Of a stretch of DNA of 64,000 nucleotides, positions 19,215 to 64,000 are shown one piece after another (position 1 is the stretch's first letter; each line of letters opens with the position of its first letter). The stretch lies in assembly GCF_964355755.1 (NCBI RefSeq), contig NC_092680.1:21925001-21989000 (forward strand), written 5' to 3'. The position numbers and the translations under genes are program-made. The notes under the pieces were generated by a model that searched no databases, was not told where the DNA came from, and saw nothing but the letters and a program-made list of their open reading frames with translations. Source of the DNA: Antedon mediterranea. Lineage: Eukaryota; Echinodermata; Crinoidea; Comatulida; Antedonidae.

Positions 19215-20512
19215 TCACCGGTACACGATCCTCAATGCTGTCTGCAATTTGCGCGTGAAATCTGTTCCGATATACGTACACAATAAGTACACACAAAAAA
19301 ACCCATAGCTGATTTTTATACTGAATACCAAAAAGCGATGTATTTGATGTCTTTCTTATTAATTGTGTATAATTCAACGGAATTTATTTTTACAACAAGC
19401 GCGTATTCTGGGTTGTTGTTGCAATACATAACTACGAAAGCAATATCGTCCATGTAATGTGTGAAATGGCATGGAGCGCATTGCAGCAGAAGCTGACGTC
19501 ATCAAATCAGTGTATCAATATTACGCACTAATTGTTATTATTTTCACTAAACCGATTACCTGTATAAATAGTGAATTTACGAGTGTCTGTATGCCACTGA
19601 CTTATATTTGATGGTATGATGAGTGCATGCTAAACGATTGGCGTGGGTGTTAGAATTCAATAAAACAAACAATAACTACAACCTGTTGCCTGCTATGTAT
19701 CGGAATCACACACTGTTTATCGATTACAGTCGGTTCCCATCCGAAACGACGTCCAGGAGCAATATTGTTTAATTTCACAATTAATATTTAAAACATTCTT
19801 ATGGATGGTAATCCTGCAGCAGTATTGTAAGCAACATACGATAGCTAAATGTAAGTAAAATGTTATCTATATAATTTGGTGATGATGCTTTTCTTAACTG
19901 AACAAAATAATAAATATAACTACTTCGTTCAGGCTGCTGTCAAATTGTCATTGAATATGGTTTAGCAATTGTTGCTGATTGCGTTGGACTATTACAAATA
20001 TAATACAGTCATGTTCAAAAGATGTTATTATTTCACAAATCTCGTGTTCTTTTAACACACGATGGAGAAATTTCATTATTTAAAGCGTCATATTTTGTTC
20101 TATTTTTCAGATTTATCTTCATTTTGAACAAGTTTGACGTTGAACAATGACGTAATAGTGTGATTAGTGTCAAATGGAAAATTGTATAGTAGTTCTATTC
20201 TTATAATTCCTTGTTCAATTACTTGAATGTGAACAATCGTTGTTCAATTACTTGAATGTGAACAAGATGACGAAGCTGTTTGAAAGTATCCTTGCTCAAC
20301 TCAACAGACAGGTGGCGTTGTTGAAACTCAATATTATAATTATTCAAGACAAGCTGGAAATGCAAATGTATTGCAATAAAAACAATGCAAATACACAAAT
20401 CGCGTCACTCGTTAAAGGCAGTTCAACAAAACATAATAAGAGGACTAAAATATTACGAAAAGCATTATATTTGTGTGTTGAATTTACTAACGTTTGTCAT
20501 ACAATTGAAATA
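19215..20512. other. MOS upstream region and probable 5' UTR
   Basis: No gene beyond chance frames. A 30-base segment (TGTTCAATTACTTGAATGTG) is tandemly duplicated at 20211-20266. The open frame of MOS extends upstream through 20267 (in-frame ATG) and beyond. An acceptor-like TATTTTTCAG at 20101-20110 suggests a 5' UTR intron. Confidence 0.4.
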
Positions 20513-21508
20513 ATGTCACCAAGACGAAGTTTGAAAAGACAAGCTGGCTTTGAGTTGGTTCCATGCGCTTTTTCTCAGACTCTTGCTGTCGAACCAGGTA
20601 GGCCTACAACGTCTCAACATTTGGACTCGGTTAACGGTAATAATAATAATAACAACTGCTGCCAGCAACAACGAATGGTAAACGAGGATGACTTCTCACT
20701 GGACAAGTTAGCTCACCTAGGTTCCGGCGGTTTTGGATCAGTTTTTAAAGGTACTTATTGTGGCAGAAATGTAGCGATTAAATACATGCATGAAAGTAAA
20801 AGAAAAAGTCGAGCTTTAGTGCAGAGTTTTGAAGCCGAACTAGAAGCTGTCAACTTAGTTCATGAAAACATTGTTCGAATATTGGCGGCAAGTGACCCAA
20901 CTGATGTACAAGTAGGCTGCTTTTTAATTATGGAGTACGCGGGTGATCGAAATTTATTACAATGTATTAATGACCCAACTGAACGATTTCCACTTCAGCG
21001 CAGGGCAAAGTATGCCTTTGATATAGTGAGCGCCTTAGAATACATACACAGCAACTGTTTGGCACATTTAGATATCAAACCAGCTAATGTTATAATTTCA
21101 CCAAATGATAGCTGTAAAATAACTGATTTCGGATGTTGTCGACAAGTAAAGAACGGTGTGGTTATTAATGGTATCACAGACCGATCTTACTTAACCGGTA
21201 CGTATACGTACCGCGCACCAGAACTTTTACGTGGTAGTCTACCGACCGTTAAAGCGGATATGTATTCCTTAGGTATAACTCTGTGGCATATGATGGTTCG
21301 TGAACAACCGTATGATGGAGATATGCACGTGGTTATATTTGCAGTGGTTGCGTACGGTTTGAGACCAGAATGTCCTGATAACGTGAATCTAAATGAACAG
21401 TGGTTTGTAAACCTCTTCAAGCAATGTTGGCATGCTTCACCAAGTGAGCGACCGTCGGCAAATGTTGTCAAGGAGACACTCTTTTGTAAACTTATTCGTT
21501 GCGTTTAA
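20513..21508 (+). CDS. MOS: Mos serine/threonine kinase (MAPKKK of meiotic maturation)
   Basis: Intronless kinase gene. Mos activates MEK/MAPK in oocytes and, in vertebrates, holds metaphase II arrest. I chose the ATG at 20513 (MSPRRSLKR, 331 aa) because its length and Ser/Pro-rich start resemble other Mos proteins; in-frame ATGs exist upstream, e.g. 20267. Counting from 20513: glycine loop GSGGFGSVFK at about 70-79, ATP-binding Lys 90 in VAIKY, catalytic loop HLDIKPAN at 185-192 (Asp187), DFG 205-207 and APE 235-237. HLDIKPANVIIS, TGTYTYRAPELL, SLGITLWHMM and FAVVAYGLRPE are the Mos-specific signatures. Single-exon structure also fits MOS in other animals. The next gene downstream is SYCP2-like, also meiotic. 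Confidence 0.93.
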   Translation: MSPRRSLKRQAGFELVPCAFSQTLAVEPGRPTTSQHLDSVNGNNNNNNCCQQQRMVNEDDFSLDKLAHLGSGGFGSVFKGTYCGRNVAIKYMHESKRKSRALVQSFEAELEAVNLVHENIVRILAASDPTDVQVGCFLIMEYAGDRNLLQCINDPTERFPLQRRAKYAFDIVSALEYIHSNCLAHLDIKPANVIISPNDSCKITDFGCCRQVKNGVVINGITDRSYLTGTYTYRAPELLRGSLPTVKADMYSLGITLWHMMVREQPYDGDMHVVIFAVVAYGLRPECPDNVNLNEQWFVNLFKQCWHASPSERPSANVVKETLFCKLIRCV

Positions 21509-24376: not shown

Positions 24377-27300
24377 CCGTTAGTTGAATGCGAGAAAGGT
24401 CATAGCAAACAATCAATGATCCTGAAGTCATTAGACAGACTACTGGACCTTTTGAACAGTAGAAATAGAAATGATTTCTACACCAGCATGCAGGTAAATC
24501 AAAAATACACTTTTTCATTTTTTATTTATTAATAATAATGTAAGGAATTCCATAAAATGTTTTTTTATGGTTTTAATCAATCAATACCAAGTTATAATTT
24601 GAAAATTATTGTACTTTGTACCTCACTATATTAGACTAGTATTTATTCAGTATCATAATAATGTTTTGTTGTTTATTTCTTACTCTCTCAGTAAATAATA
24701 ATAATATCCTGAATTTATATAGCGCCTAATGTTGTGAAACCTCTAAGTGCTGAACATTTTGTTTTATAGGCTTTGAGAGATATTAATATACTTTTAGAAG
24801 ATTTTCGTCCTGATTCAAGTACCAAAAATGATTTAACCGTTAAAAATATTTTGTAAGTATGCCTACTATATTTGTACAACAAAAATTGTATGATGTTTTT
24901 TGCCAACAACATAGAAGATAGAAACTGGTGACAAATATACCTTGCTAAATATAATGTTATGTTACATGGATGATTGATTTCTATTTATATAATTCTTTCC
25001 TGATGTATTTTAAATTGATATTAATTGTAAATTAATTTAGGAAACAACTAAATCAGTTCTTAGTAATAGCTGGAGACTTTGAAATGCAGATGTCATTAAT
25101 TGAGTTGATGGTACGATTAGTGAGAAAATCAGAACGTCCATTTTATGCTAAAAAATGGTTTCCACAACATCATCTCGCTCTCAAGTTTCTTGAAATAAAG
25201 GAATCTTGTTTTGATGAAGTATGTATTTTTTTAAATGTTTTTAAAGATGTATTGTCCCCCCAAAACATCTAAAATGAGTAGGCCATTTAGTTTCAATATA
25301 GTTAATCAATTCCAGAAAAAAATGTTTTCACTTAGAAAAAAAACCCCAAAAAACAAAGTTTAACCAAAAATCTAATTTGGACTATTTTTTGGCTTCAAAT
25401 TACAGTTTTTTCAGGTAAATAATTTGTTTGGATCAAATTTTTGGTCAAAGTGAATAACTCTTGAAATTAAAAAAGCATATTATAAAGAGAAACAATTTAA
25501 AAATAAAAATAAACTTCATATGAGGCTAGACTGGTGGCATTGAAACTGCACACGCATTTCTTTTTTTAACTTGCAAAGCTAATTAATCAGTCTGCTAATT
25601 TGTGTCTAGCCCTGTAATAATTAAATTTACAATTTCTAGAAATTGAATCAAATTAAATAAATCAATATTTAAAATGATCAACTAATTCCTAAATAATATG
25701 TTTGTTATTACTTTAAAGGACTGTAGGAAATTCTTGAATATTTTAAATGAATCTGCTGGTAGAGAGAGGAGGTATGTTACTATATTTAGAAATATAATAC
25801 GTATTGCTTATTTTGATGTTTCATCTTATTGGCATTACCTGTGGCGGAAGCATCAATTAATAATGTGTCTTTACTGTATTACTCTGACATGCTTAATTTA
25901 CGGCGCTTATATTTATGGTTCTCGTCCTATTGGAATCACTTAATAATAATTTACACCATTATTGTATTTAAAACATTTTCTCACTATAATCTTAATATAC
26001 AATATACCAATTTATTTAATGTTAATATTATCTTATAATATTTATAAAATATTTATAATTTAAACAAATAATATTAAAAAAAATTTCAGTATAAAAAGAA
26101 AATTTGCTAAAGGTGTTGTAACAATATTAATGTTATATAATTGTTTTTAGTGTCTACTCTAATATGTAGCTGCTGAAGGTGTTGTAACAATATTAATGTT
26201 ATATAATTGTTTTTAGTGTCTACTCTTATGTAGCTGCTGAAGCACACCTTGGATATCATAAGGTCAGTAACACTCAAGTCTATTCAGAAAATATACCATG
26301 TCATTTTCAAGTAAAATATTGTTAAATATGGAAACAAATATATAATGTAATATTATGTAATGTATTCATGGAGAGATATTTATTGAAAGCCCGACTACTC
26401 AACAAATATTTTCCACATTAAACTCATAAACATTTATTATTTGTATACTACTGAAGCAAACATAGTGTGGGTGGTTTTCAATTAAAGCAACTGGATTCTA
26501 TTCCAATTGAGAATTAACTATATAAAATCTATAATAATCTTTCAGACTGATTTTAATTGTGTTGATTTAATATTCTTTTCTTTTTACAGTTAACTGTCCC
26601 AAAAGGAAATGAATTTTGGGTTGATTTCAATTCAGTTTCAAAGTGCCTTACCATCTATGTTGATGATGAAAATAATAATAGTGTTAGTTATTTTAACTTT
26701 TCTAACTGTCTCAAGTTGCATCCTCTTTTATATTTATCATAAGTTGTCTGAACATAAACTTATCTTGCTCATGAAATGATACAGAACATAAACTTGTCAT
26801 TTTATTTATGAACTTAGAATTTATGTCTCAATTGTATATTTCCTTTCTATTAATGAATTCAAAATTTCATCTGTAGTAAAAACAATCAATATTTACTGCT
26901 TTGGAATTTGACAAAAGTTTGTTATTTATAATTAAAAGTGTTTTACTTTTAGAATGCGTGGGAGACAATTACTATAGCAGATAATGATGTCAACAATTAC
27001 ACAATTAAAGGTATTTATCACATTCTGCATTTCAGAATTTGGCATATTATTTAGTTTTTGTTTTTTAGTTTTTGAGCATTAATTTGGTATATTATTTTGT
27101 TGTGGTTTCTGTAGTTTTTAGGTATAATTTGGCATATTATTTTGTTTTTTTTAGTGTTTTAGCATAATTTGGAATATTGTGTTGATTTTGTTCCTTCAGT
27201 TTTTTTTAGCATAATGAATTGTTGGCCAATTAAGTTATGTTTTTGTTCATTTAATTTTTTAGTATATAAACTAATGTAAATATCATTTCATTTTTACTTT

Positions 27301-30300
27301 TTGAGCATTAATTTGGCATGTTGTTTTTGTTTACAGAGAGAGGGAGGAGGTTTAATATGCTACATCTGAACCTTACACTTCTTGTGAGTGATTTATTTGA
27401 AAAGTGCCAGGATAACAGTCAAGTTGTTCAGATAATGTTTGACAAATCTATTAATCTTAAACATGCATTGAATGTGGCATTTGGAAACAAGTCTTGCAGA
27501 AGAAGTGTAAGTAGCAGTGTAAGATTTAATCTGCTCGCAAAAACATAAAGATAAATAAAATCGATTTGTAGTTTAATCAAGTGAAGTCCCCGGTAAAAAT
27601 TCCAGTTGAAGACCAGTTGGGAATTTTCCCGGTTGTGAATTGAGACAATTACCAGTTGTAAATTTCCCAGTTGTGAATTTTCCAACTGGTCTGATAATCC
27701 CAGTTGTAAATTTTACCAGTTGTAAATTTCTCAACTGGTCTGATAATCCCAGTTGTGAATTTTTCAACTGGTCTGATCAATCCCAGTTGTAAATTTTCCC
27801 AGTTGTACATTTTTCCTAGTTGAGAATTGTCCCAACTGGTAAATTTCAGTACAAAATCGAATCACACAAACTACAGAACTTATTGTTTAACTGTTTATTT
27901 TATTAACTTTAATATTTACAATTACAGTAGTTACTTTCAATTCTGCAGTACTGTAGTTAATTACCCCACAAAGGTCTTAACGACCTGCATAACCCCTACA
28001 TCTACACAAATGTCAGCATATATCCCTCCTGTTTCCTTTTTACAGGTCCATGAAAATGGAGATCTAGTATTTATTCAGTAATATATTTATGAAGTTATGG
28101 CCACGTACCTTCTTTATTTAGGCATGTTGAAAATTAGTCCTGAAAGAGAAAAACCAAAACAAATTGTTACTTATATAAACAATCTACTGGTAGTACAAGG
28201 AATAAATCAAATTCAAATCTCAAGTGTCAATTTATAATTTATATACTCTTACTGAAAAAGGAAGATGGAATAATATTAATAGAAATGAAAGATTATGCAA
28301 ATTATGTGGTTCAATTTTTGGTCAAAATAAATAATCTTTATGACATCAAAATGGTCTATTCAACCAACATTCCCTATTTACATCATCATACAGTAAAATG
28401 AAAATCTTGCCTCGTCTATTGGTACTACAGGTCCTCGTCTATTGGTACTACTGTAATTAAAAAAGTATGTCCTTCCTTTTGCTGGCAAGATGGGGAATCA
28501 ATTCCACCAACTTCTCCTATAAATGCTGGCAAGATAGGGAATCAATTCCACCAACTTCTCCTATAAATGCTGGCAAGATAGGGAATCAATTCCACCAACT
28601 TCTCCTATAAATGCTGGCAAGATAGGGAATCAATTCCACCAACTTCTCCTATAAATGCTGGCAAGATAGGGAATCAATTCCACCAACTTCTCCTATAAAT
28701 GCTGGCAAGATAGGGAATCAATTCCACCAACTTCTCCTATAAATGCTGGCTAGATAGGGAATCAATTCCACCAACTTCTCCTATAAATGCTGGCTAGATA
28801 GGGAATCAATTCCACCAACTTCTCCTATAAATGCTGGCAAGATAGGGAATCAATTCCACCAACTTCTCCTATAAATGGAAGAAAGAAACCTTGTATAAAA
28901 CGAAGATTCTGTATTGAAAGTATTATATTATAGATATCAGGTGGAAAGTCTTCAGTTACTGAGATGGATATTTCAGTAAATAGAACCACTAAAAGCAGTA
29001 AAGACATTTTGTCTGTAATACCAGTCTCTCCAGAATTAATAAGCTCAAGTCTACCACAAGACGAACCTTACCCAAAGGTAGTGTGTGTTTAAGAAACATT
29101 AAATTAATATCAGAAACAGGAGTTTAAGTTGTATCCTGAGTAGTTATAATATGCTACGATTTTGATGGAAAACTTATGAATAATGGTAATATAAGAATAA
29201 TGGGATTCATTAAATCTCAAATTTAGTGAATGTATGTAAAGCTCTGTCTACACTATCAAACTTATGTGATGTGCTCATATATGGACATGATGATGTCATA
29301 TCACTACCATATTTGGGCACATCACAATTGTTTGTCAAACTAGTTTGATAGTGTAGACGGAGCTTTAGTTGACTTATTGTGAAAGATCAAACAAGATCTT
29401 TAACAAGAATGTTTGTCTGAATATATTCAGATTGGAAGAGGAAACAGTGATGTAAGAAGAGTTTCTGTACCTTTGATTGCTATGGTTTCCCCTGCTAGAG
29501 AAACAGTACCAAAATCAACTTTTAAGACATCTAAACCAACTCCTAATGCCTCAATAATGGCTACAAAAAGCAAGAACACTGGACACAAAAAACATGATAA
29601 TAGTAATGACAAAAAAGGTAGATATTTATGAAATAAATTATGGGATACAAATTAAATAGCACTAAAAAGTGACAATGCTGGTTATCAGTGGCTGAATCTC
29701 AATGGAGATACAAATAAAATAAGCACTAAATAAATGCTGTTGTTATCAGTGGCTTGATCTCAATGGAGATACAAAAATAAGTAAATACTACAAAAAGTGG
29801 CGGAGCAGCTTTACATTTGTATCTATTTTTGCATTTTGACATAGATGTTCCTAAAACACCCAAGACAAAGCAAGGTAGTACCAAACGAGTGAAGACGCCA
29901 TTACGTATTATTATACCCAATGATAAATCAAGCACTGATAATGAAAAGTCTAATGATACTGATACAGACATGAAAAAACCTGTTAAAGAGAGAATAGAGA
30001 TTTGTGAACAGATTGACATAAAACGTGAAGTTCAGACAGCACCCAACGGTGAACAGGTAGGCCATGAGGTTGAACTGAACATTGCTGACCTGGTGGTTGC
30101 TGACCTGGTTGTTGCTGACCTGGATATTGCCGACCTGAAGATTACTGACCTGGTAATTGCTGACCTGGGCGATGGCCATGGTATACAGAACAATGAAGCT
30201 GAGAATGATTCTGATGCAGAAGATTTACCAAGTATGTAAATGTGATCAAACAAATTAATTACCTTTTATGAAACTTTGATTATTTATTTAAAAATTTATT

Positions 30301-33300
30301 TTAATAAAAACACTGTTATCCAATCTTAATCATTGATTCTTGATTCTCCAACGGAAAACCTGGTATTAAACATGTTATTTGTCTTAATTTCAGTAGTATC
30401 TTCTGGTCGTATAGTTCCAGTGGAAAATGATTCTGATGTAATTCCAGACTCATTGCCACCTTCTTATGACAGTCAACTTAGCAAAGTGGACAACAGGTAA
30501 TAATATTAATGATGTCATATTTAGCCTCTAACAAATTGTCCTATCGCTTAGAAATAAAAAAGTATTAAATAAAAATTAAGGTGTGTTCTTCTATTGAATA
30601 GAAAAGATTAATGTTTCACAGTTTAGGAGCTGTAAACTGCAAAGGCGCGATCACCATACAAGAGATGTTGCATAGACTAGAGATCTACATTTATTTAAGT
30701 TTGAAATATTATTACATTCACATGTATAAATATAAATTTTAGGACAATCTGTTAGAGGCTAATATAAATACTTACATATTTGTCTTAATATTGAGAAGGA
30801 AATCTAAACAAAATGTCTATAATTGATTGCAGTGAGTTGTATACTAAGAAGGTGTACTTAGCAGCTCTGACTCCAACACTAAGTACTGTCGCAGAAGAGG
30901 AAGCATCGCGTAGTAAGCAGACTACACCCAGTAATAAACCTGAAAGTCCAAGTGGATCCCATACTAAGAATCTTACACAAAGCAATGTACCATCACAGAA
31001 TTCAGGTAAGCATTTATTTATTAATTATCTTTGATATGACGACAATTTTAGTTCTTCCATTCTGCTGTAATGTTTACAGATCTAGTAAAAAATCTTGTAT
31101 AACTCTGCCCACCAGTTTAACCCTGCCCACCAGTTAAACTCCTCCCACCAGTAAAACTCCGCCCACCAGTTAAACTAAAATTATTTTTGTCTGTATTTTG
31201 TAAAACAAATTTCATGTATACCTCAGGTGTAAATGTGTCAATAAAGTTTATCTTATCTTGAATATTAAATAAATTAATTAAATAAGTAAAGCTACTGAAT
31301 CAATTTGTTCCTCCTATAATTAAGAATTTTTCGTTACATTAATCCATTTTTCGTTACATTAATCCATTTTTCGTTACATTAATCTATTTTTAAAGATATT
31401 AATCAAGTATCAGATGAAGACCACCTAAATGTATCACAGGAATCAGTTTGCTCACAATCTAGTAATGTACTACTGAAATGCAGCCAGACAAGAGCAAAAC
31501 CCAAGTATAACCCTAGTCTAGGTGGATGGCAGATAAAAACACAGAAACCCTCAAGAGGAAAAGTAAGAGCCAGCCAACCAAAGGAGAATATCGATGAAGT
31601 CATTCTGGAAAATGAATCGGACCCATACGAATTTCAAGTAGAAACAAGAGCAAGGAAACGTGAAAGTGATTCTCAGTCCTCCTCACCACCATCTTTCTAT
31701 GCGAAGTATAGAAATAGACAAAAGGAATCAACAAAACAAAAAGTAAAAAAAACAAAAAAACAACAGAAAGGAAAAATAGGAAAAAAAAATGACGAGAAGA
31801 ATGAATTAAATAAAAGAAAAACAGAAGACAAAATAGATCATTATTCATTTGAAAAAACCGATGAAGAATGTGGAGCACAAAAACAAGTAAACAGAAGAGG
31901 TTATGATGATACCGATACTGAACCAATTCCATATGACGACTTTATAAAAATGAAAGCAAAACAAAACTTAGAGAAGACGATCAGTGAAGAAGAGTGTCAG
32001 GAAGATTCATTAAGTGACTTTAAAAAGCAAAGTTGTAAAAAGAGTCAAACAAAAGGGAAAGGACGGAAAAGGAAATTTCTTCAATCAATTAATCCTGTCA
32101 AACAAATTAACAGTTTAAACAAAATACTGGAGAAGGAGAACAGGGGCCTAGAACGTAAAAACAAAAGAAACAAAATAGTAGAAATTGAGGTTCTGAGTGA
32201 TGGAAATACTGATGAAATGGAGGTTCATCATCTTGAAGAATGTAATGAAATGGACAACAGTTATAGAAGAAATAAAAAGCAAAGGAAGAAGAACATGCAT
32301 GAAATAGAGGTTCTGAGTGATGGACATACTGATGAGGTTCATCATCTTGAAGAATGTAATGAAATGAACAACAGTAATAGAAGAAATAAAAAGCAAAGGA
32401 AGAAGAACATGCATGAAATAGAGGTTCTGAGTGATGGACATACTGATGAGGTTCATCATCTTGAAGAACGTAATGAAATGAACAACAGTAATAGAAGAAA
32501 TAAAAAGCAAAGGAAGAAGAACATGCATGAAATAGAGGTTCTGAGTGATGGACATACTGATGAGGTTCATCATCTTGAAGAACGTAATGAAATGAACAAC
32601 AGTAATAGAGGAAATAAAAAGCAAAGGAAGAAGAACATGCATGAAATAGAGGTTCTGAGTGATGGACATACTGATGAGGTTCATCATCTTGAAGAACGTA
32701 ATGAAATGAACAACAATAATAGAGGAAATAAAAAGCAAAGGAAGAAGAACATGCATGAAATTGAGGTCCATGATGAACAGCAAAAGAACATGGGTGAGAT
32801 TGAGGTTATGCGTGATGCACATACTGATGATATTGAGTTCCAAGATAGAGATCTTAATGAACTTCACACAATGGTTGGTTCTATGATTCGGGGTTGTAAA
32901 CCAAAACAGCAAGGTGCGAAAAGTAAGCAAATGCATACGGTTGCAGATTACAACCAAATGCATACGGTTGCAGATTACAACCAAATGCATACGGTTGCAG
33001 ATTACAACCAAATGCATACGGTTGCAGATTACAATAAAAAAAAAAAATTAGAAAGAAAGAAGAAAGAGCAGCAAGAAATAAACAATTACCAGCTTGATGA
33101 AAATTACACAAAGAGACAAGAAAGAAGAAAGCCAGGATCTGATGATAGTAATGCACGGATTGAGGATTTTGAAACCCCTCAAGAAGTTGTAAGTTGTGAA
33201 GAAGATGAAGAAATTGACAAAGAAAAAAGTGAGAATGGTTCATTGAAGCTGCAGGAGCAAGAAGTAAAGATGAGTAAAATGGAAAACCTTATAGAAACAA

Positions 33301-39300: not shown

Positions 39301-42300
39301 GTAGTTCAATTGGTTTTGAACATAATTTTTAAAATCATAATTTATTTTTATTTTGTTCTTGATCATCAAACATTAAATAATTCTAAAATTAACTAATATA
39401 TATACTCATTTACTATTAGGTATCCAGTGGTTGAGATAGACCATTATACTAGGGTGACCTCTCTTCTTTGAAAAATGGCCTGGGTTCTATAATGCAACAC
39501 AGTCAGATATAGTTTTTAATCCTTATTTAAGAAGACGAGGAGAGCCTTCAACATGTGCTATGGTTATGGTGCTTCTGCCTAAACACCTTAGCCACTCTCT
39601 GAAATATATATTTTTTTAAATTGAAATAGATTTTAATGATGGCGAGCAAGTAGGCAAATCAGATGATGGCCAGTTTAATGCTGGTAAAGCATCAACATCA
39701 TGCTTTACAGGTGATGAAGAGATTGAACAAATTGAACATTTACTACAAGTTGTACGTGGTACCATCAACAAGCACATTCAGGTATTATCAGCTTAAAGCT
39801 TGGTTCCCACTAGAGATGCAACATAGACGCAGGGAATGGATCAATGACAAGCGACTGTTTGAATAATCCTTTGCTTGTGATTGTTCAAATCACTTACGTT
39901 GCGTTACGTCCTTGCGTTGCATTCCTGGTGGGAATCCGCCTTTAAGCTATAAAATATGCATCTTATGTATTTTTGTCAATGGAAAACCAAATTGAAATTA
40001 TAATTTGATAATGTTGCAGACAAAACAAAGTCAAACCAAGAAACTAGCGGGATGTGCTATTAATACTGTCACCAAGCATTTGAAGAGCTTTAGGAGCTAT
40101 CATCAAGCTAGGTAAGAAATTTGTTTTGAAAACTGGTATATTATATGATAAATAAAAGAGTAAAAACACACAGAAAATTGCACCAACACAGATAAGCACT
40201 TCAACAACTTATAATAATTATTTGATATTTCTAACATTAGTAAAAAGTAGGTTCATCTGGATCTTTAGATTGTGATGTAACAATTTATTTTCATTTCAAG
40301 TCTTTATTTGCGCATACACAACCCATTGTGTTTTGTAACAGAAAATTTCTTTTTTAAACAGTTTCAAAGAATTGAAATTGGGACAACAAAAGATATTAGG
40401 AGAGATTTTGTCTTTGGAAGAAGGTTTAGAGGCGATGAATGCAATTGAACTAAAGAGTAGTAAACTAATGAAACAACTGCATGGAAAATTATCACTTAAG
40501 CTGTATGAAAAGTAAGGCAATAAGACAAGTTTCTTGTCCATATATAGGCACATCACATGATATGCTTGAATGTGGTAGTGATATGATGACATCATGTCTA
40601 TATATAGGCACATCACATGATATGATGACATCATGTCTATATATAGGCACATCACATTTTTTTTTGTCACATGGGTTTCACAGTCTAGACAGAGCTTTAG
40701 CAATAAAATTATTTACGATTGTAGAAAGACTATATAATTTTTGCAGATTTTATTTCTGTTAATAATATATTTTATAACAAATGTTTAATTACTGTTTTCC
40801 TTCGAAAAATATTGTGAATCTAACCTGCAATGTAATTTATATATTTTAACAGCATTGAAACTATTAGAAATACATTGGAAGAGTTCCAAGAGAGGAATGT
40901 CCAACTGGACATCAGCCTTAAGAGGGAGTTGCAAAGTGGACTACAGAATATCATCTTCCAAGAGATAAATGAACTTAAGAACAAGATTATTCAAGATGAA
41001 GTAAGTAGAAGGTTTCATCCTGTGTAATGTTTGTGTATTATTCAAGATGAAGTAAGTAGAAGGTTTCATCCTGTGTAATGTTTGTGTATTATTCAAGATG
41101 AAGTAAGTAGAAGGTTTCATCCTGTGTAATGTTTGTGTATTATTCAAGATGAAGTAAGTAGAAGGTTTCATCCTGTGTAATGTTTGTGTATTATTCAAGA
41201 TGAAGTAAGTAGAAGGTTTCATCCTGTGTAATGTTTGTGTATTATTCAAGATGAAGTAAGTAGAAGGTTTCATCCTGTGTAATGTTTGTGTATTATTCAA
41301 GATGAAGTAAGTAGAAGGTTTCATCCTGTGTAATGTTTGTGTATTATTCAAGATGAAGTAAGTAGAAGGTTTCATCCTGTGTAATGTTTGTGTATTATTC
41401 AAGATGAAGTAAGTAGAAGGTTTCATCCTGTGTAATGTTTGTGTATTATTCAAGATGAAGTAAGTAGAAGGTTTCATCCTGTGTAATGTTTGTGTATTAT
41501 TCAAGATGAAGTAAGTAGAAGGTTTCATCCTGTGTAATGTTTGTGTATTATTCAAGATGAAGTAAGTAGAAGGTTTCATCCTGTGTAATGTTTGTGTATT
41601 ATTCAAGATGAAGTAAGTAGAAGGTTTCATCCTGTGTAATGTTTGTGTATTATTCAAGATGAAGTAAGTAGAAGGTTTCATCCTGTGTAATGTTTGTGTA
41701 TTATTCAAGATGAAGTAAGTAGAAGGTTTCATCCTGTGTAATGTTTGTGTATTATTCAAGATGAAGTAAGTAGAAGGTTTCATCCTGTGTAATGTTTGTG
41801 TATTATTCAAGATGAAGTAAGTAGAAGGTTTCATCCTGTGTAATGTTTGTGTATTATTCAAGATGAAGTAAGTAGAAGGTTTCATCCTGTGTAATGTTTG
41901 TGTATTATTCAAGATGAAGTAAGTAGAAGGTTTCATCCTGTGTAATGTTTGTGTATTATTCAAGATGAAGTAAGTAGAAGGTTTCATCCTGTGTAATGTT
42001 TGTGTATTATTCAAGATGAAGTAAGTAGAAGGTTTCATCCTGTGTAATGTTTGTGTATTATTCAAGATGAAGTAAGTAGAAGGTTTCATCCTGTGTAATG
42101 TTTGTGTATTATTCAAGATGAAGTAAGTAGAAGGTTTCATCCTGTGTAATGTTTGTGTATTATTCAAGATGAAGTAAGTAGAAGGTTTCATCCTGTGTAA
42201 TGTTTGTGTATTATTCAAGATGAAGTAAGTAGAAGGTTTCATCCTGTGTAATGTTTGTGTATTATTCAAGATGAAGTAAGTAGAAGGTTTCATCCTGTGT

Positions 42301-45300
42301 AATGTTTGTGTATTATTCAAGATGAAGTAAGTAGAAGGTTTCATCCTGTGTAATGTTTGTGTATTATTCAAGATGAAGTAAGTAGAAGGTTTCATCCTGT
42401 GTAATGTTTGTGTATTATTCAAGATGAAGTAAGTAGAAGGTTTCATCCTGTGTAATGTTTGTGTATTATTCAAGATGAAGTAAGTAGAAGGTTTCATCCT
42501 GTGTAATGTTTGTGTATTATTCAAGATGAAGTAAGTAGAAGGTTTCATCCTGTGTAATGTTTGTGTATTATTCAAGATGAAGTAAGTAGAAGGTTTCATC
42601 CTGTGTAATGTTTGTGTATTATTCAAGATGAAGTAAGTAGAAGGTTTCATCCTGTGTAATGTTTGTGTATTATTCAAGATGAAGTAAGTAGAAGGTTTCA
42701 TCCTGTGTAATGTTTGTGTATTATTCAAGATGAAGTAAGTAGAAGGTTTCATCCTGTGTAATGTTTGTGTATTATTCAAGATGAAGTAAGTAGAAGGTTT
42801 CATCCTGTGTAATGTTTGTGTATTATTCAAGATGAAGTAAGTAGAAGGTTTCATCCTGTGTAATGTTTGTGTATTATTCAAGATGAAGTAAGTAGAAGGT
42901 TTCATCCTGTGTAATGTTTGTGTATTATTCAAGATGAAGTAAGTAGAAGGTTTCATCCTGTGTAATGTTTGTGTATTATTCAAGATGAAGTAAGTAGAAG
43001 GTTTCATCCTGTGTAATGTTTGTGTATTATTCAAGATGAAGTAAGTAGAAGGTTTCATCCTGTGTAATGTTTGTGTATTATTCACTGGGGCGGATCCAGA
43101 CATTTTTGAGAGGGGGGGTCCGCCGATAAAAAGGGCACATCAGATATTGAGTATTTGAGCCACAGCCCCCCCATGGTGGGGGTTGTGGCGAAGCGAATTT
43201 TGTTACAGGACACACTTAGATGGCCAGAAATGGCACTCTCGCACGCAAAATCCATGATAAATGGCACCTTTCTAGTTCGCCGGAAATGACACTTTATTAG
43301 CAGGGATAACGATGCAAAATTAAAAGTTGTTATTTTTCAACCAATTTAAACATTATCTGTTGGTATTTTGTTTCAATATTCCAATAAAGAAAGAATTACG
43401 AAAATCTGACTTGTAGTTTTCGAAATATAGGGTCTAAAACATTGCCGAAAATGATCGTTTTTAGCCACGAACGTTGTAAACAAATTGCGCCATTTTTCGC
43501 TAAAATAATTACATATAATTACGTTTTATAGTAATTTCTTTTATATATCAACATTGGAAATATCAATAAAATATGTTATTAAATGTTTATAAAATATATA
43601 GAGTTGTTTATTTAACGGAGTTCGTACAAATTCATTGCTCTAAATTTGTGTAGTACCGTTCAGTACAGAGTGATCACGTGACTTCTTGGTACACGTACGC
43701 GAGAGAAAACATTCCGCTGTGGGTGATTCGCGTCCACCAATCAAATAGCCAGAATCCAAAATCATTCAACCGGCCGTGAGCTCTGCCGATCGCGAGAAAG
43801 CTCAGCTTTGATTGGCTTACGATGACATCATATCACAAAATGGTGGTTTTGTAGTTGAGCCTCACGTAATTTTCACAAATAATTGTTTCAAAAATGAAAT
43901 AAATGAACCTTCTTTATGGTATGTGTGATTTTTCTTTAAAAGATTTGAATAATAAAGGCTTGATATCGAGAAAAAAACATTTTTTTTGCACTTATAATAA
44001 ATATTTCTCAAAGAAAAAAGCACATGGCTTGTAGAACTATATTATCTTGGCGTAGGAAGTCAAACAAATCCCAGGTCATGAGAGGCTCAACTACAAGAAC
44101 AAAGTTGAATAGTGTAGGATGACCGTTCGATGATTTTTGAGTAAACAATCTACCGCGTATGGTCGTACGCGCTAGATAGTACGATATTTTAAATACATTT
44201 TTTACATGTTTGGTTGGATGTAATGGAAATAAAAAATAGTTGATCTGATGGAATGATATGTAAATAAACAAATACTCAAAAGAATTATGTTTACAGTTCA
44301 ATTATTTTCAGAATAATAATACATCAAAATGTGTTTACCAATGGACAAATAATCACGTCAATGACATAGCGCGCATGGTAACGTACGCGGAGTTGAATCG
44401 TAAACAGTTTACATGCGCCCTCTGTAGTATGTGAAACGATCTATTTTTAGAAGTTTAAGTAGAGATCATCACGCGTCACCACCTCTCACGATGCTCTTTG
44501 ATCGGCCGCCGTAACTTAACATCGCGCTCATTGTGATAAATTTCTGTTTTTATTTTTGGGGTTAGTGTAGCCTACTCTGTGCATACTAATATACACACAA
44601 ATATGTCACACGAATAAAATATTGAACCTCTAAAAAAAGGGCACCCTTAAAATTTAGGGGGGGTCCGGACCCCGTGGACCCCCCCTCTGGATCCGCCCCA
44701 GATTCAAGATGAAGTAAGTAGAAGGTTTCATCCTGTGTAATGTTTGTGTATTATTCAAGATGAAGTAAGTAGAAGGTTTCATCCTGTGTAATGTTTGTGT
44801 ATTATTCAAGATGAAGTAAGTAGAAGGTTTCATCCTGTGTAATGTTTGTGTATTATTCAAGATGAAGTAAGTAGAAGGTTTCATCCTGTGTAATGTTTGT
44901 GTATTATTCAAGATGAAGTAAGTAGAAGGTTTCATCCTGTGTAATGTTTGTGTATTATTCAAGATGAAGTAAGTAGAAGGTTTCATCCTGTGTAATGTTT
45001 GTGTATTATTCAAGATGAAGTAAGTAGAAGGTTTCATCCTGTGTAATGTTTGTGTATTATTCAAGATGAAGTAAGTAGAAGGTTTCATCCTGTGTAATGT
45101 TTGTGTATTATTCAAGATGAAGTAAGTAGAAGGTTTCATCCTGTGTAATGTTTGTGTATTATTCAAGATGAAGTAAGTAGAAGGTTTCATCCTGTGTAAT
45201 GTTTGTGTATTATTCAAGATGAAGTAAGTAGAAGGTTTCATCCTGTGTAATGTTTGTGTATTATTCAAGATGAAGTAAGTAGAAGGTTTCATCCTGTGTA

Positions 45301-47501
45301 ATGTTTGTGTATTATTCAAGATGAAGTAAGTAGAAGGTTTCATCCTGTGTAATGTTTGTGTATTATTCAAGATGAAGTAAGTAGAAGGTTTCATCCTGTG
45401 TAATGTTTGTGTATTATTCAAGATGAAGTAAGTAGAAGGTTTCATCCTGTGTAATGTTTGTGTATTATTCAAGATGAAGTAAGTAGAAGGTTTCATCCTG
45501 TGTAATGTTTGTGTATTATTCAAGATGAAGTAAGTAGAAGGTTTCATCCTGTGTAATGTTTGTGTATTATTCAAGATGAAGTAAGTAGAAGGTTTCATCC
45601 TGTGTAATGTTTGTGTATTATTCAAGATGAAGTAAGTAGAAGGTTTCATCCTGTGTAATGTTTGTGTATTATTCAAGATGAAGTAAGTAGAAGGTTTCAT
45701 CCTGTGTAATGTTTGTGTATTATTCAAGATGAAGTAAGTAGAAGGTTTCATCCTGTGTAATGTTTGTGTATTATTCAAGATGAAGTAAGTAGAAGGTTTC
45801 ATCCTGTGTAATGTTTGTGTATTATTCAAGATGAAGTAAGTAGAAGGTTTCATCCTGTGTAATGTTTGTGTATTATTCAAGATGAAGTAAGTAGAAGGTT
45901 TCATCCTGTGTAATGTTTGTGTATTATTCAAGATGAAGTAAGTAGAAGGTTTCATCCTGTGTAATGTTTGTGTATTATTCAAGATGAAGTAAGTAGAAGG
46001 TTTCATCCTGTGTAATGTTTGTGTATTATTCAAGATGAAGTAAGTAGAAGGTTTCATCCTGTGTAATGTTTGTGTATTATTCAAGATGAAGTAAGTAGAA
46101 GGTTTCATCCTGTGTAATGTTTGTGTATTATTCAAGATGAAGTAAGTAGAAGGTTTCATCCTGTGTAATGTTTGTGTATTATTCAAGATGAAGTAAGTAG
46201 AAGGTTTCATCCTGTGTAATGTTTGTGTATTATTCAAGATGAAGTAAGTAGAAGGTTTCATCCTGTGTAATGTTTGTGTATTATTCAAGATGAAGTAAGT
46301 AGAAGGTTTCATCCTGTGTAATGTTTGTGTATTATTCAAGATGAAGTAAGTAGAAGGTTTCATCCTGTGTAATGTTTGTGTATTATTCAAGATGAAGTAA
46401 GTAGAAGGTTTCATCCTGTGTAATGTTTGTGTATTATTCAAGATGAAGTAAGTAGAAGGTTTCATCCTGTGTAATGTTTGTGTATTATTCAAGATGAAGT
46501 AAGTAGAAGGTTTCATCCTGTGTAATGTTTGTGTATTATTCAAGATGAAGTAAGTAGAAGGTTTCATCCTGTGTAATGTTTGTGTATTATTCAAGATGAA
46601 GTAAGTAGAAGGTTTCATCCTGTGTAATGTTTGTGTATTATTCAAGATGAAGTAAGTAGAAGGTTTCATCCTGTGTAATGTTTGTGTATTATTCAAGATG
46701 AAGTAAGTAGAAGGTTTCATCCTGTGTAATGTTTGTGTATTATTCAAGATGAAGTAAGTAGAAGGTTTCATCCTGTGTAATGTTTGTGTATTATTCAAGA
46801 TGAAGTAAGTAGAAGGTTTCATCCTGTGTAATGTTTGTGTATTATTCAAGATGAAGTAAGTAGAAGGTTTCATCCTGTGTAATGTTTGTGTATTATTCAA
46901 GATGAAGTAAGTAGAAGGTTTCATCCTGTGTAATGTTTGTGTATTATTCAAGATGAAGTAAGTAGAAGGTTTCATCCTGTGTAATGTTTGTGTATTATTC
47001 AAGATGAAGTAAGTAGAAGGTTTCATCCTGTGTAATGTTTGTGTATTATTCAAGATGAAGTAAGTAGAAGGTTTCATCCTGTGTAATGTTTGTGTATTAT
47101 TCAAGATGAAGTAAGTAGAAGGTTTCATCCTGTGTAATGTTTGTGTATTATTCAAGATGAAGTAAGTAGAAGGTTTCATCCTGTGTAATGTTTGTGTTAG
47201 CACCATGCATTTAAAGCTCTGTCTACACTATTACACTTTATGTGAAAACAAAATGTGATGTTCCCATATATGGATATGATGTCTTATCACCACCATATTT
47301 TGGGCACATCACATTTTTTTAGTCAAACTAATTTGATAGTGTGGACAGAGCCCCCTATTACAAAACAAAAGTTAATTGAACAATTCCAAATCACTGTTAT
47401 AAATAAGTTTGTTAAATTTATGTATTTTCAATTAATTTCAGAAACGCCAGGAATTGATGCAAGTGAAAAGATCATTGCAGTCACTTTTTACGACATTGTG
47501 A
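24377..47501 (+). CDS. SYCP2: Synaptonemal complex protein 2-like, N terminus not found
   Basis: Lateral-element protein of the meiotic synaptonemal complex. Exons in consistent phase: 24377-24493, 24770-24852, 25041-25218, 25719-25771, 26217-26262, 26590-26682, 26953-27010, 27337-27506, 28934-29077, 29431-29617, 29845-30231, 30394-30496, 30833-31005, 31396-33416, 33833-33900, 34248-34284, 34498-35088, 36487-36621, 38999-39254, 39630-39781, 40020-40111, 40362-40511, 40853-41000, 47442-47501. They give about 1833 residues. An optional exon at 38623-38721 also keeps frame but has a poor donor. The first exons match the ARM-like domain (AGDFEMQMSLIELMVRLVRK) and the Spt16M-like domain (NEFWVDFNS). 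A long low-complexity middle contains VIPDSLPP. The C-terminal coiled coil ends RQELMQVKRSLQSLF, close to vertebrate SYCP2 ends. About 180 N-terminal residues were not located. SYCP2L is an alternative name; a pre-duplication orthologue of both is likely. Confidence 0.88.
26110..26241 (+). repeat. Duplicated acceptor and start of SYCP2 exon 5
   Basis: A 66-bp unit containing intron end, TTTTTAG acceptor and exon start TGTCTACTCT occurs twice. The first copy (acceptor at 26149-26150) has two extra bases and reads into a stop (TAG); the second (26215-26216) continues the correct frame into YVAAEAHLGYHK. Confidence 0.85.
27590..27850. repeat. Self-complementary CCCAGTTGTAAATTTT / CAACTGG cluster
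   Basis: About ten imperfect copies of CCAGTTGTRAATTTT alternate with CAACTGGTCTGATAATC. CCAGTTG and CAACTGG are complementary, so adjacent units can pair into hairpins. It lies in a SYCP2 intron. Confidence 0.7.
28480..28876 (+). repeat. 44-bp minisatellite, about 9 copies
   Basis: Units begin TGCTGGCAAGATAGGGAATC and end in TTCTCCTATAAA. Copies are nearly identical (AAG/TAG and GGGG/AGGG variants). Intronic in SYCP2, ending about 60 bases before the exon at 28934. Confidence 0.9.
29237..29367. repeat. Family-A MITE, copy 2
   Basis: TAAAGCTCTGTCTACACTAT at the left and TAGTGTAGACGGAGCTTTA at the right, with CATATATGGACATGATGATG and GGGCACATCACA inside. Intronic in SYCP2, 60 bases before an exon. 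Confidence 0.8.
31101..31176 (+). repeat. About 20-bp tandem repeat, 4 copies
   Basis: Degenerate units of the form CYGCCCACCAGTTWAACTC. Intronic. A second short array, TTTTTCGTTACATTAATCCA repeated three times, lies at 31326-31386 directly before the large SYCP2 exon. Confidence 0.8.
32164..32775 (+). repeat. In-frame 114-bp repeat in the large SYCP2 exon
   Basis: About five copies encode a 38-residue unit containing KKQRKKNMHEIEVLSDG and HHLEERNEMNNSN, alternating basic and acidic. The copies are nearly identical, so the expansion is recent. A 27-bp repeat encoding QMHTVADYN follows in four copies (32928-33036). Both preserve frame. Confidence 0.9.
33465..33612. repeat. Family-B MITE, copy 2
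   Basis: TTAAGCTTGATTCCCACTAG at the left and CTAGGGAACCAAGCATTAC at the right. It lies 50 bases after the donor of the large SYCP2 exon (33416/33417); the exon's open frame runs into it if unspliced. Confidence 0.7.
35112..35612. mobile_element. Fold-back MITE with 8-bp target duplication
   Basis: 501 bp. Ends are a long perfect inverted repeat (about 49 bases) starting ACGAAAGCCCATTAATGCC. They are flanked by ACAGATTT on both sides (35104-35111 and 35613-35620). The core is many copies of short self-complementary words such as GAACGGATTACTAAT and GTTTAAACGGATT, so the whole element can fold repeatedly. An 8-bp duplication fits hAT, P or Merlin-like groups; I do not choose between them. It lies 23 bases after a SYCP2 donor site. 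Long frames on both strands are repeat artefacts. Confidence 0.9.
35674..36389. mobile_element. PIF/Harbinger-like non-autonomous element
   Basis: Imperfect terminal inverted repeats: GGGCCTGTTCGTAGGGGTTG at the left and the complement of GGTCGTGTTCGTACGGTGGT at the right. They are flanked by ATA (35671-35673 and 36390-36392). GGGCCTGTTCG-type ends with 3-bp duplications are common in Harbinger relatives, although their usual target is TWA. The CpG-rich interior holds a broken minus-strand frame (about 36154-35860) rich in Arg/Pro, which may be a transposase remnant. Intronic in SYCP2. Confidence 0.55.
36713..37831 (+). repeat. About 551-bp tandem duplication with palindromic start
   Basis: Two copies, from about 36735 and 37287, match over their whole length with few changes (a T deletion in TTTGAGGG is one). 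Both end CGTTGAGAAGGAACT. The first copy is preceded by an inverted repeat, TAGATGGTACGC and GCGTACCATCTA, around TCGCTTCGGTC (36714-36748). Probably a transposon fragment duplicated in a SYCP2 intron. Confidence 0.8.
39794..39944. repeat. Family-B MITE, copy 3
   Basis: TAAAGCTTGGTTCCCACTAG at the left and CTGGTGGGAATCCGCCTTTA at the right, 12 bases after the SYCP2 donor at 39781/39782. Confidence 0.75.
40538..40699. repeat. Family-A MITE, copy 3, internally rearranged
   Basis: The right end TCTAGACAGAGCTTTA is intact. Inside, ATATATAGGCACATCACATG occurs three times, and the left end is degraded. It starts near 26 bases after the SYCP2 donor at 40511/40512. Confidence 0.65.
40989..43084 (+). 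repeat. 51-bp splice-donor minisatellite, left block (about 41 copies)
   Basis: Unit: ATTCAAGATGAAGTAAGTAG followed by AAGGTTTCATCCTGTGTAAT and GTTTGTGTATT. The first unit overlaps the end of SYCP2 exon 40853-41000: ATTCAAGATGAA is coding (IQDE) and GTAAGT is the donor. Every later copy therefore repeats exon end plus donor. Copies look identical throughout. The antisense strand stays open, producing a spurious 17-residue repeat frame. Confidence 0.97.
43085..44701. mobile_element. 1617-bp TIR element inserted in the minisatellite
   Basis: Perfect 16-bp terminal inverted repeats, CTGGGGCGGATCCAGA, with further GGGGGGGTCC homology inside. They are flanked by ATTCA (43080-43084 and 44702-44706). 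Removing the element and one ATTCA restores the uninterrupted 51-bp array. There is no transposase; the longest frame is 97 aa without recognisable motifs. The superfamily is not assigned: a 5-bp duplication excludes typical Tc1/mariner (TA), PIF/Harbinger (3 bp) and hAT (8 bp). Confidence 0.92.
44702..47197 (+). repeat. 51-bp splice-donor minisatellite, right block (about 49 copies)
   Basis: Continuation of the left block with the same unit and phase, ending within a unit at GTTTGTGT before a family-A MITE. The SYCP2 terminal exon (47442) follows about 245 bases later. Confidence 0.97.
47212..47352. repeat. Family-A MITE, copy 4
   Basis: TAAAGCTCTGTCTACACTAT left and TAGTGTGGACAGAGCC right, with CATATATGGATATGATG and GGGCACATCACA inside. 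Confidence 0.8.

Positions 47502-51365: not shown

Positions 51366-64000
<12,635 letters not shown>

Follow-up and report, generated by a model that had tools for sequence, protein, structure and literature searches.

How does an exon come to be followed by about ninety copies of its own donor, and which of these can the spliceosome take if the protein is to be made? The question is raised by an animal SYCP2 gene, coding for a protein of meiosis, in the 64-kb stretch of DNA analyzed here (C11:21925001-21989000, below referred to as the window). The genome comprises 354 Mb in 18 contigs; GC content is 33% for the window and ranges from 32 to 36% among five loci. Contigs C1-C11 total about 353.5 of 354.4 Mb and thus hold nearly all sequence, so that 11 chromosomes are probable; 11 is also the chromosome number of crinoids. 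Amphioxus, with about 41% GC and 18-20 chromosomes, is probably not the source, and a COX1 search gave no match. The following features of the gene are considered:

24377-27506, plus strand: eight SYCP2 exons (SLD domain and its neighbourhood) that identify the gene and splice to a 266-aa open frame
40853-41000, plus strand: SYCP2 exon 5' of the array, 148 bp, ending GATGAA/GTAAGT (donor 1); one of the final five exons, which splice in frame to a stop
40986-43084, plus strand: left part of the array, 51-bp period, 41 donors
43085-44701, strand not assigned: inserted DNA transposon, 1,617 bp, with inverted ends and an ATTCA target duplication
44702-47197, plus strand: right part of the array, 51-bp period, 49 donors
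47442-47501, plus strand: coding part of the terminal SYCP2 exon, KRQELMQVKRSLQSLFTTL-stop

Identity of the gene, proposed earlier from the letters, was supported by the 266-aa frame, which matched SYCP2_SLD in Pfam (PF18584, E 1.6e-16, 61.1 bits at a cut-off of 26.5) and the SYCP2 structure 5iwz in PDB (E 2.9e-30); the Spt16M-like domain of SYCP2 is recognised from these two matches. The model covers these eight upstream exons and the last five. The last five (39620-47501) splice in frame to the stop, and the start of the first of them (39620) was set from the open frame. The C-terminal coiled coil of SYCP2 binds SYCP3. The C-terminal 118 or 203 residues of the model (coil) gave no relevant match in Pfam or PDB, and the description of the terminal exon as conserved is thus unsupported. 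Two further repeats, with periods of 114 and 27 bp, both multiples of three, lie at 32181-32767 and 32928-33034 inside an open frame of 711 aa located in the SYCP2 region. Directly 5' of SYCP2 there is an unbroken 433-aa protein kinase frame (20207-21505, Pkinase E 1.4e-46), which we take to resemble MOS.

The 11-mer GAAGTAAGTAG was found in 90 exact copies between 40998 and 47169, on the plus strand only, as compared with an average of 0.05 in shuffled sequences (n=100). The donors follow one another at 51-bp spacing from the end of exon 40853-41000, and TRF made a single array call there (40986-47197, period 51), so that the ninety or so tandem donors described by the sequence-only reading are real. 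Its unit, counted from 40989 with 33 intron bases, had to be corrected: the repeat starts at 40986 and combines 15 exon bases with 36 intron bases, donor included. Tandem units thus contain the exon end together with the adjoining intron, and each of the 90 GTAAGT donors lies inside a repeated unit. Due to this growth the intron, about 280 bp long before it (36 + 244), now measures 6,441 bp. When two units were used as a genome DNA query, 46 matches were obtained, all in this array, though misses in such a search are no proof of rarity. An antisense frame of 732 aa composed of 17-residue repeats (40941-43139, minus strand) crosses the left part of the array; a unit length of 51, divisible by three, keeps it open, and it is probably meaningless.

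The run of donors, taken before as unbroken from 40989 to 47197, is in fact divided by a 1,617-bp transposon that had been overlooked and that leaves 41 donors on its 5' side and 49 on its 3' side. Ends of the insert are inverted (CTGGGGCGGATCCAGA and TCTGGATCCGCCCCAG), and the 5-bp duplication ATTCA stands at both flanks. Its first 154 bases occur in at least 40 places of the genome, itself included, with 93-100% identity (40 of 358 candidates were scored). No period-51 mismatches were registered in either half of the array (0 of 2048 comparisons in the left and 0 of 2444 in the right), and removal of the insert with one ATTCA left 4538 period-51 matches of 4538, or 89.98 units. The insert is, therefore, a dispersed mobile element that arrived in a pre-existing array, the array being the older of the two. 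The perfect match of the units supports the recent expansion suggested earlier, or else a recent homogenisation; most likely the array either expanded recently or has had its uniformity maintained by exchange.

Structures of this kind are known. In amphioxus, minisatellite-like tandem duplications across an intron/exon boundary, either 5' or 3', were named "mirages" (PMC3087553, as far as its accessible text goes). They were reported for Adh3 and the globins BflGb6 and BflGb9 in the same source and for Adh, troponin C and PGBD5 in the accessible part of PMC3902484, with the splice signal repeated in many cases, but not all. In these sections RT-PCR is said to suggest normal splicing, and intron gain from mirages is proposed. 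The SYCP2 array shares with them the boundary-spanning minisatellite-like units and the repeated splice signals, and differs in having a transposon inside and in its size, about 90 identical units here versus 3 and 6 in the two haplotypes of BflGb6 (PMC3087553, same portion). In human IFI6 (6-16) an exon-end minisatellite likewise supplies several successive donors, and use of the later ones is reported, giving three mRNA species (Turri et al. 1995, as presented in the consulted part of PMC4526556), whereas the later SYCP2 donors tested lead to a stop. Tandem duplication also multiplied splice signals in potato RdRp, with intron gain (PMC4974935, partial text), and in human internal tandem repeats at exon-intron boundaries that were linked to new introns (PMC2812944, partial text); unlike these, the SYCP2 array enlarged an existing intron and needed no new one. 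Among the literature covered, which included few subscription papers and is therefore weak evidence of absence, no array approached 90 donors. Thus, the SYCP2 array is real and extreme in size, but its kind is already known, and it cannot be regarded as a singular case, because arrays over splice sites form a published class and recur in this genome.

One might suppose that the array, or at least its copy number, was produced by assembly. Its copies, read in one assembly, show no differences at all, and one amphioxus mirage was misassembled in the draft genome (PMC3087553, in the accessible portion). Against this, a transposon lies inside, flanked by its target duplication and with an exact period on either side, and similar boundary arrays are present in other genes, some of them, unlike this one, with internal differences. 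We consider an artefact highly improbable.

Virtual splicing of six donors to the terminal exon gave an unequal outcome. Donor 1 (41000) produced ...IIQDEKRQELMQVKRSLQSLFTTL-stop and was the only one to keep the SYCP2 frame, while donors 2, 3, 4, 46 and 90 each produced ...IIQDEVSRRFHPV-stop, so that the predicted addition of VSRRFHPV and a stop by later donors holds for all five tested. The stop is located 24 nt ahead of the junction with donor 2 and 75 nt with donor 3. Nonsense-mediated decay acts on stops roughly 50 nt or more ahead of a junction. With donor 3 and all subsequent ones the distance is at least 75 nt, and the mRNA should therefore decay. Frequent use of later donors, or of poly(A) sites within the insert, would give SYCP2 without its last 19 residues and with the VSRRFHPV end, possibly a meiotic regulator. 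Such a truncated product might be expected in so far as all donors are identical across the repeated unit, the stop of donor 2 escapes the decay limit and the insert contains 10 AATAAA/ATTAAA signals on the plus strand, with none in the rest of the intron. It is nevertheless unlikely, given the decay expected from donor 3 onwards, the resemblance of the insert to a random transposon hit and the amphioxus arrays, reported without aberrant mRNA in the available part of PMC3902484.

Based on these data one can assume, with a probability of about 0.7, that the locus is a giant mirage, in which a minisatellite caught the SYCP2 exon/intron boundary and expanded, and from which SYCP2 is presumably made by the exon-proximal donor. 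The founding unit would have spanned the exon end and the intron start by accident and multiplied to about 90, presumably via slippage or unequal exchange; the transposon entered the array afterwards. The spliceosome would mostly take the first, exon-proximal donor, paired across the 148-base exon, and the other 89 donors would in this case serve as intron filler. The minisatellite part of this reading is based on the sequence itself, whereas exon-proximal use is deduced from two things, the frames of conserved genes being intact and what was reported for amphioxus. The same outermost-site rule would be required by CAD and DHX8, where, as in SYCP2, only the outermost site tested keeps the frame.

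Six boundary arrays were found in this genome besides the index one: two in CAD, one at an SYCP2 acceptor and one each in DHX8, dynein and myosin (myosin counted once). Three of them belong to SYCP2 and CAD in the window, sampling of the myosin and dynein families contributed two, and a genome-wide donor pattern one. The three located in the window are:

26105-26242, plus strand: 66-bp repeat, two copies (26151 and 26217), at the acceptor of SYCP2 exon 26217-26262
53240-53976, plus strand: 56-bp repeat, 13 copies, at the donor of CAD exon 53187-53245; 13 donors, spacing mostly 56 bp
56684-56968, plus strand: 94-bp repeat, three copies, at the acceptor of CAD exon 56915-57046; three acceptor copies

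The CAD model consists of 24 exons and an unbroken 1468-aa frame reaching the window end; its frame was kept by the first donor only (one of five tested) and by the last acceptor only (one of three). In the CAD unit CAG/GTATGT is preceded by a pyrimidine-rich run, which makes it a candidate recursive splice site. DHX8 (C1:17774900-17778400), itself a splicing helicase gene, has 22 GGTAAG donors at an exon end, the first ones 37 bp apart; this array was located via the genome-wide donor pattern, not by sampling. The join from its donor 1 matched human DHX8 with E 6.7e-58, and the six later donors examined (2-6 and 22) ran into a stop, leaving one of seven that kept the frame. In one myosin head exon (L023) three donors with 128-bp spacing stand at the end of the fetched piece, and a paralog (L022) has a similar donor repeat; about 20 paralogous myosin-head genes are scattered over C3:19.6-25.1 Mb, the donor repeat being common to the two that were read. 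A dynein heavy chain exon (L049) carries a 138-bp unit in two copies across its donor.

Strength of the competing sites was estimated from pairing with the U1 5' end, which reads ATACTTACCTG in two U1 loci. Each donor of the SYCP2 array pairs at -7.2 kcal/mol, which places it 16th when 35 donors are sorted, ties included. In CAD the 12 decoys pair better than the real donor (-9.7 versus -8.2 kcal/mol). U1 snRNA genes form a cluster at C5:15664856-15752909, with at least 42 of them, many about 1.86 kb apart. It is tempting to generalize that position beats strength without limit, the exon-proximal donor winning against 89 identical competitors in SYCP2 and 12 better-pairing ones in CAD; we offer this only tentatively and would sooner doubt it than rely on it. 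If RNA bore it out over the boundary arrays of the genome, splice choice would here follow from whichever exon is shortest or whichever donor is made first, and could be measured at many natural loci together. In two-donor constructs the intron-proximal donor is often preferred when U1 binds both well. This predicts the opposite choice, and an RNA test would therefore be informative either way.

Since the SYCP2 donors are identical, strength is removed as a variable, and RNA reads would reveal the effect of position. CAD offers a sharper test than SYCP2, because its decoys pair with U1 better than the real donor does. Recurrence of the arrays at 5' and 3' intron/exon boundaries of conserved genes makes the test repeatable across loci, among which unit lengths and copy numbers vary and long alleles can be compared with short ones. 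The value thus lies in the set of arrays, with which both donor and acceptor choice become testable in living tissue.

Are the arrays directed to splice sites, or captured by chance? The test set comprised 70 open-frame-validated splice sites (35 donors and 35 acceptors) taken from CAD and from the SYCP2 exons modelled here. Splice sites were spanned by four of the ten arrays in these regions, whereas random placement of founding units gave 2.22 on average and reached four or more in 15.6% of 20,000 trials (P 0.16); without the index array three of nine were observed versus 2.01 expected (32%). For myosin, 50 exon pieces were used, 40 from Pfam and 10 from tblastn. Of 80 Pfam matches those in 18 fetched loci were taken, and one of the 41 entered (C2:1004786-1005049) was lost across a cut between two loci, so that 40 were placed; for dynein all 91 matches were placed. 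Two arrays span a site in the myosin sample, both in the paralogs L022 and L023, and one (L049) in the dynein sample. With founding-unit shares of 1.48 and 1.46%, about 1.5 and 2.7 captures would be expected, respectively, if each piece has two splice sites. By eye, 7 arrays lie within 60 bp of a myosin piece and 9 of a dynein piece, and of these 3 span a splice site and 13 do not. The capture rates are rough, because profile matches stand in for complete exons and the arrays number only ten.

A mechanism linked to splice sites, such as transcription-coupled breakage at boundaries, could be invoked from the four arrays in ten and from the fact that 5' and 3' boundaries are both affected here and in amphioxus (PMC3087553, accessible text). 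Yet random placement reaches four often enough, the paralogous myosin pair and the single dynein case are near the chance level, and donor-bearing arrays were also found outside recognisable exons, which makes this mechanism very unlikely. Preference of arrays for splice sites is thus unsupported, and random capture of splice sites by abundant minisatellites is a sufficient explanation, although with ten arrays the test is weak enough to be compatible with a modest boundary preference. These data suggest that mirages require no special mechanism and that a minisatellite-dense genome captures splice sites at random.

Pattern scans were also tried as a measure of genome-wide enrichment. When three CAGGTAAGT were required at gaps of 15-45 bp, 76 matches (6 + 70) were obtained versus 12 for the reversed pattern; for three AGGTAAGT at gaps of 46-72 bp the numbers were 366 and 211, respectively, loci being drawn among the matches listed. 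The claim of enrichment was dropped: these are counts of overlapping matches rather than loci, and large arrays therefore dominate them. Among ten loci fetched from the scans, one (DHX8) has its array at a coding exon end, three (L028-L030) have ends that fall within the array, and in six (L002, L003, L004, L005, L026 and L027) no coding exon was seen by eye at the first donor; the array of L002 is apparently antisense to an exon.

TRF repeats cover 17.7% of the 64-kb window. Minisatellites are dense there, and near-perfect arrays include a 63-bp unit in ten copies in a CAD intron (55553-56182) and a 44-bp unit in nine (28480-28877). In a myosin gene region (L018, 4851-6369) a 31-bp unit is repeated 49 times with 100% matches and contains a repeat ORF of 568 aa.
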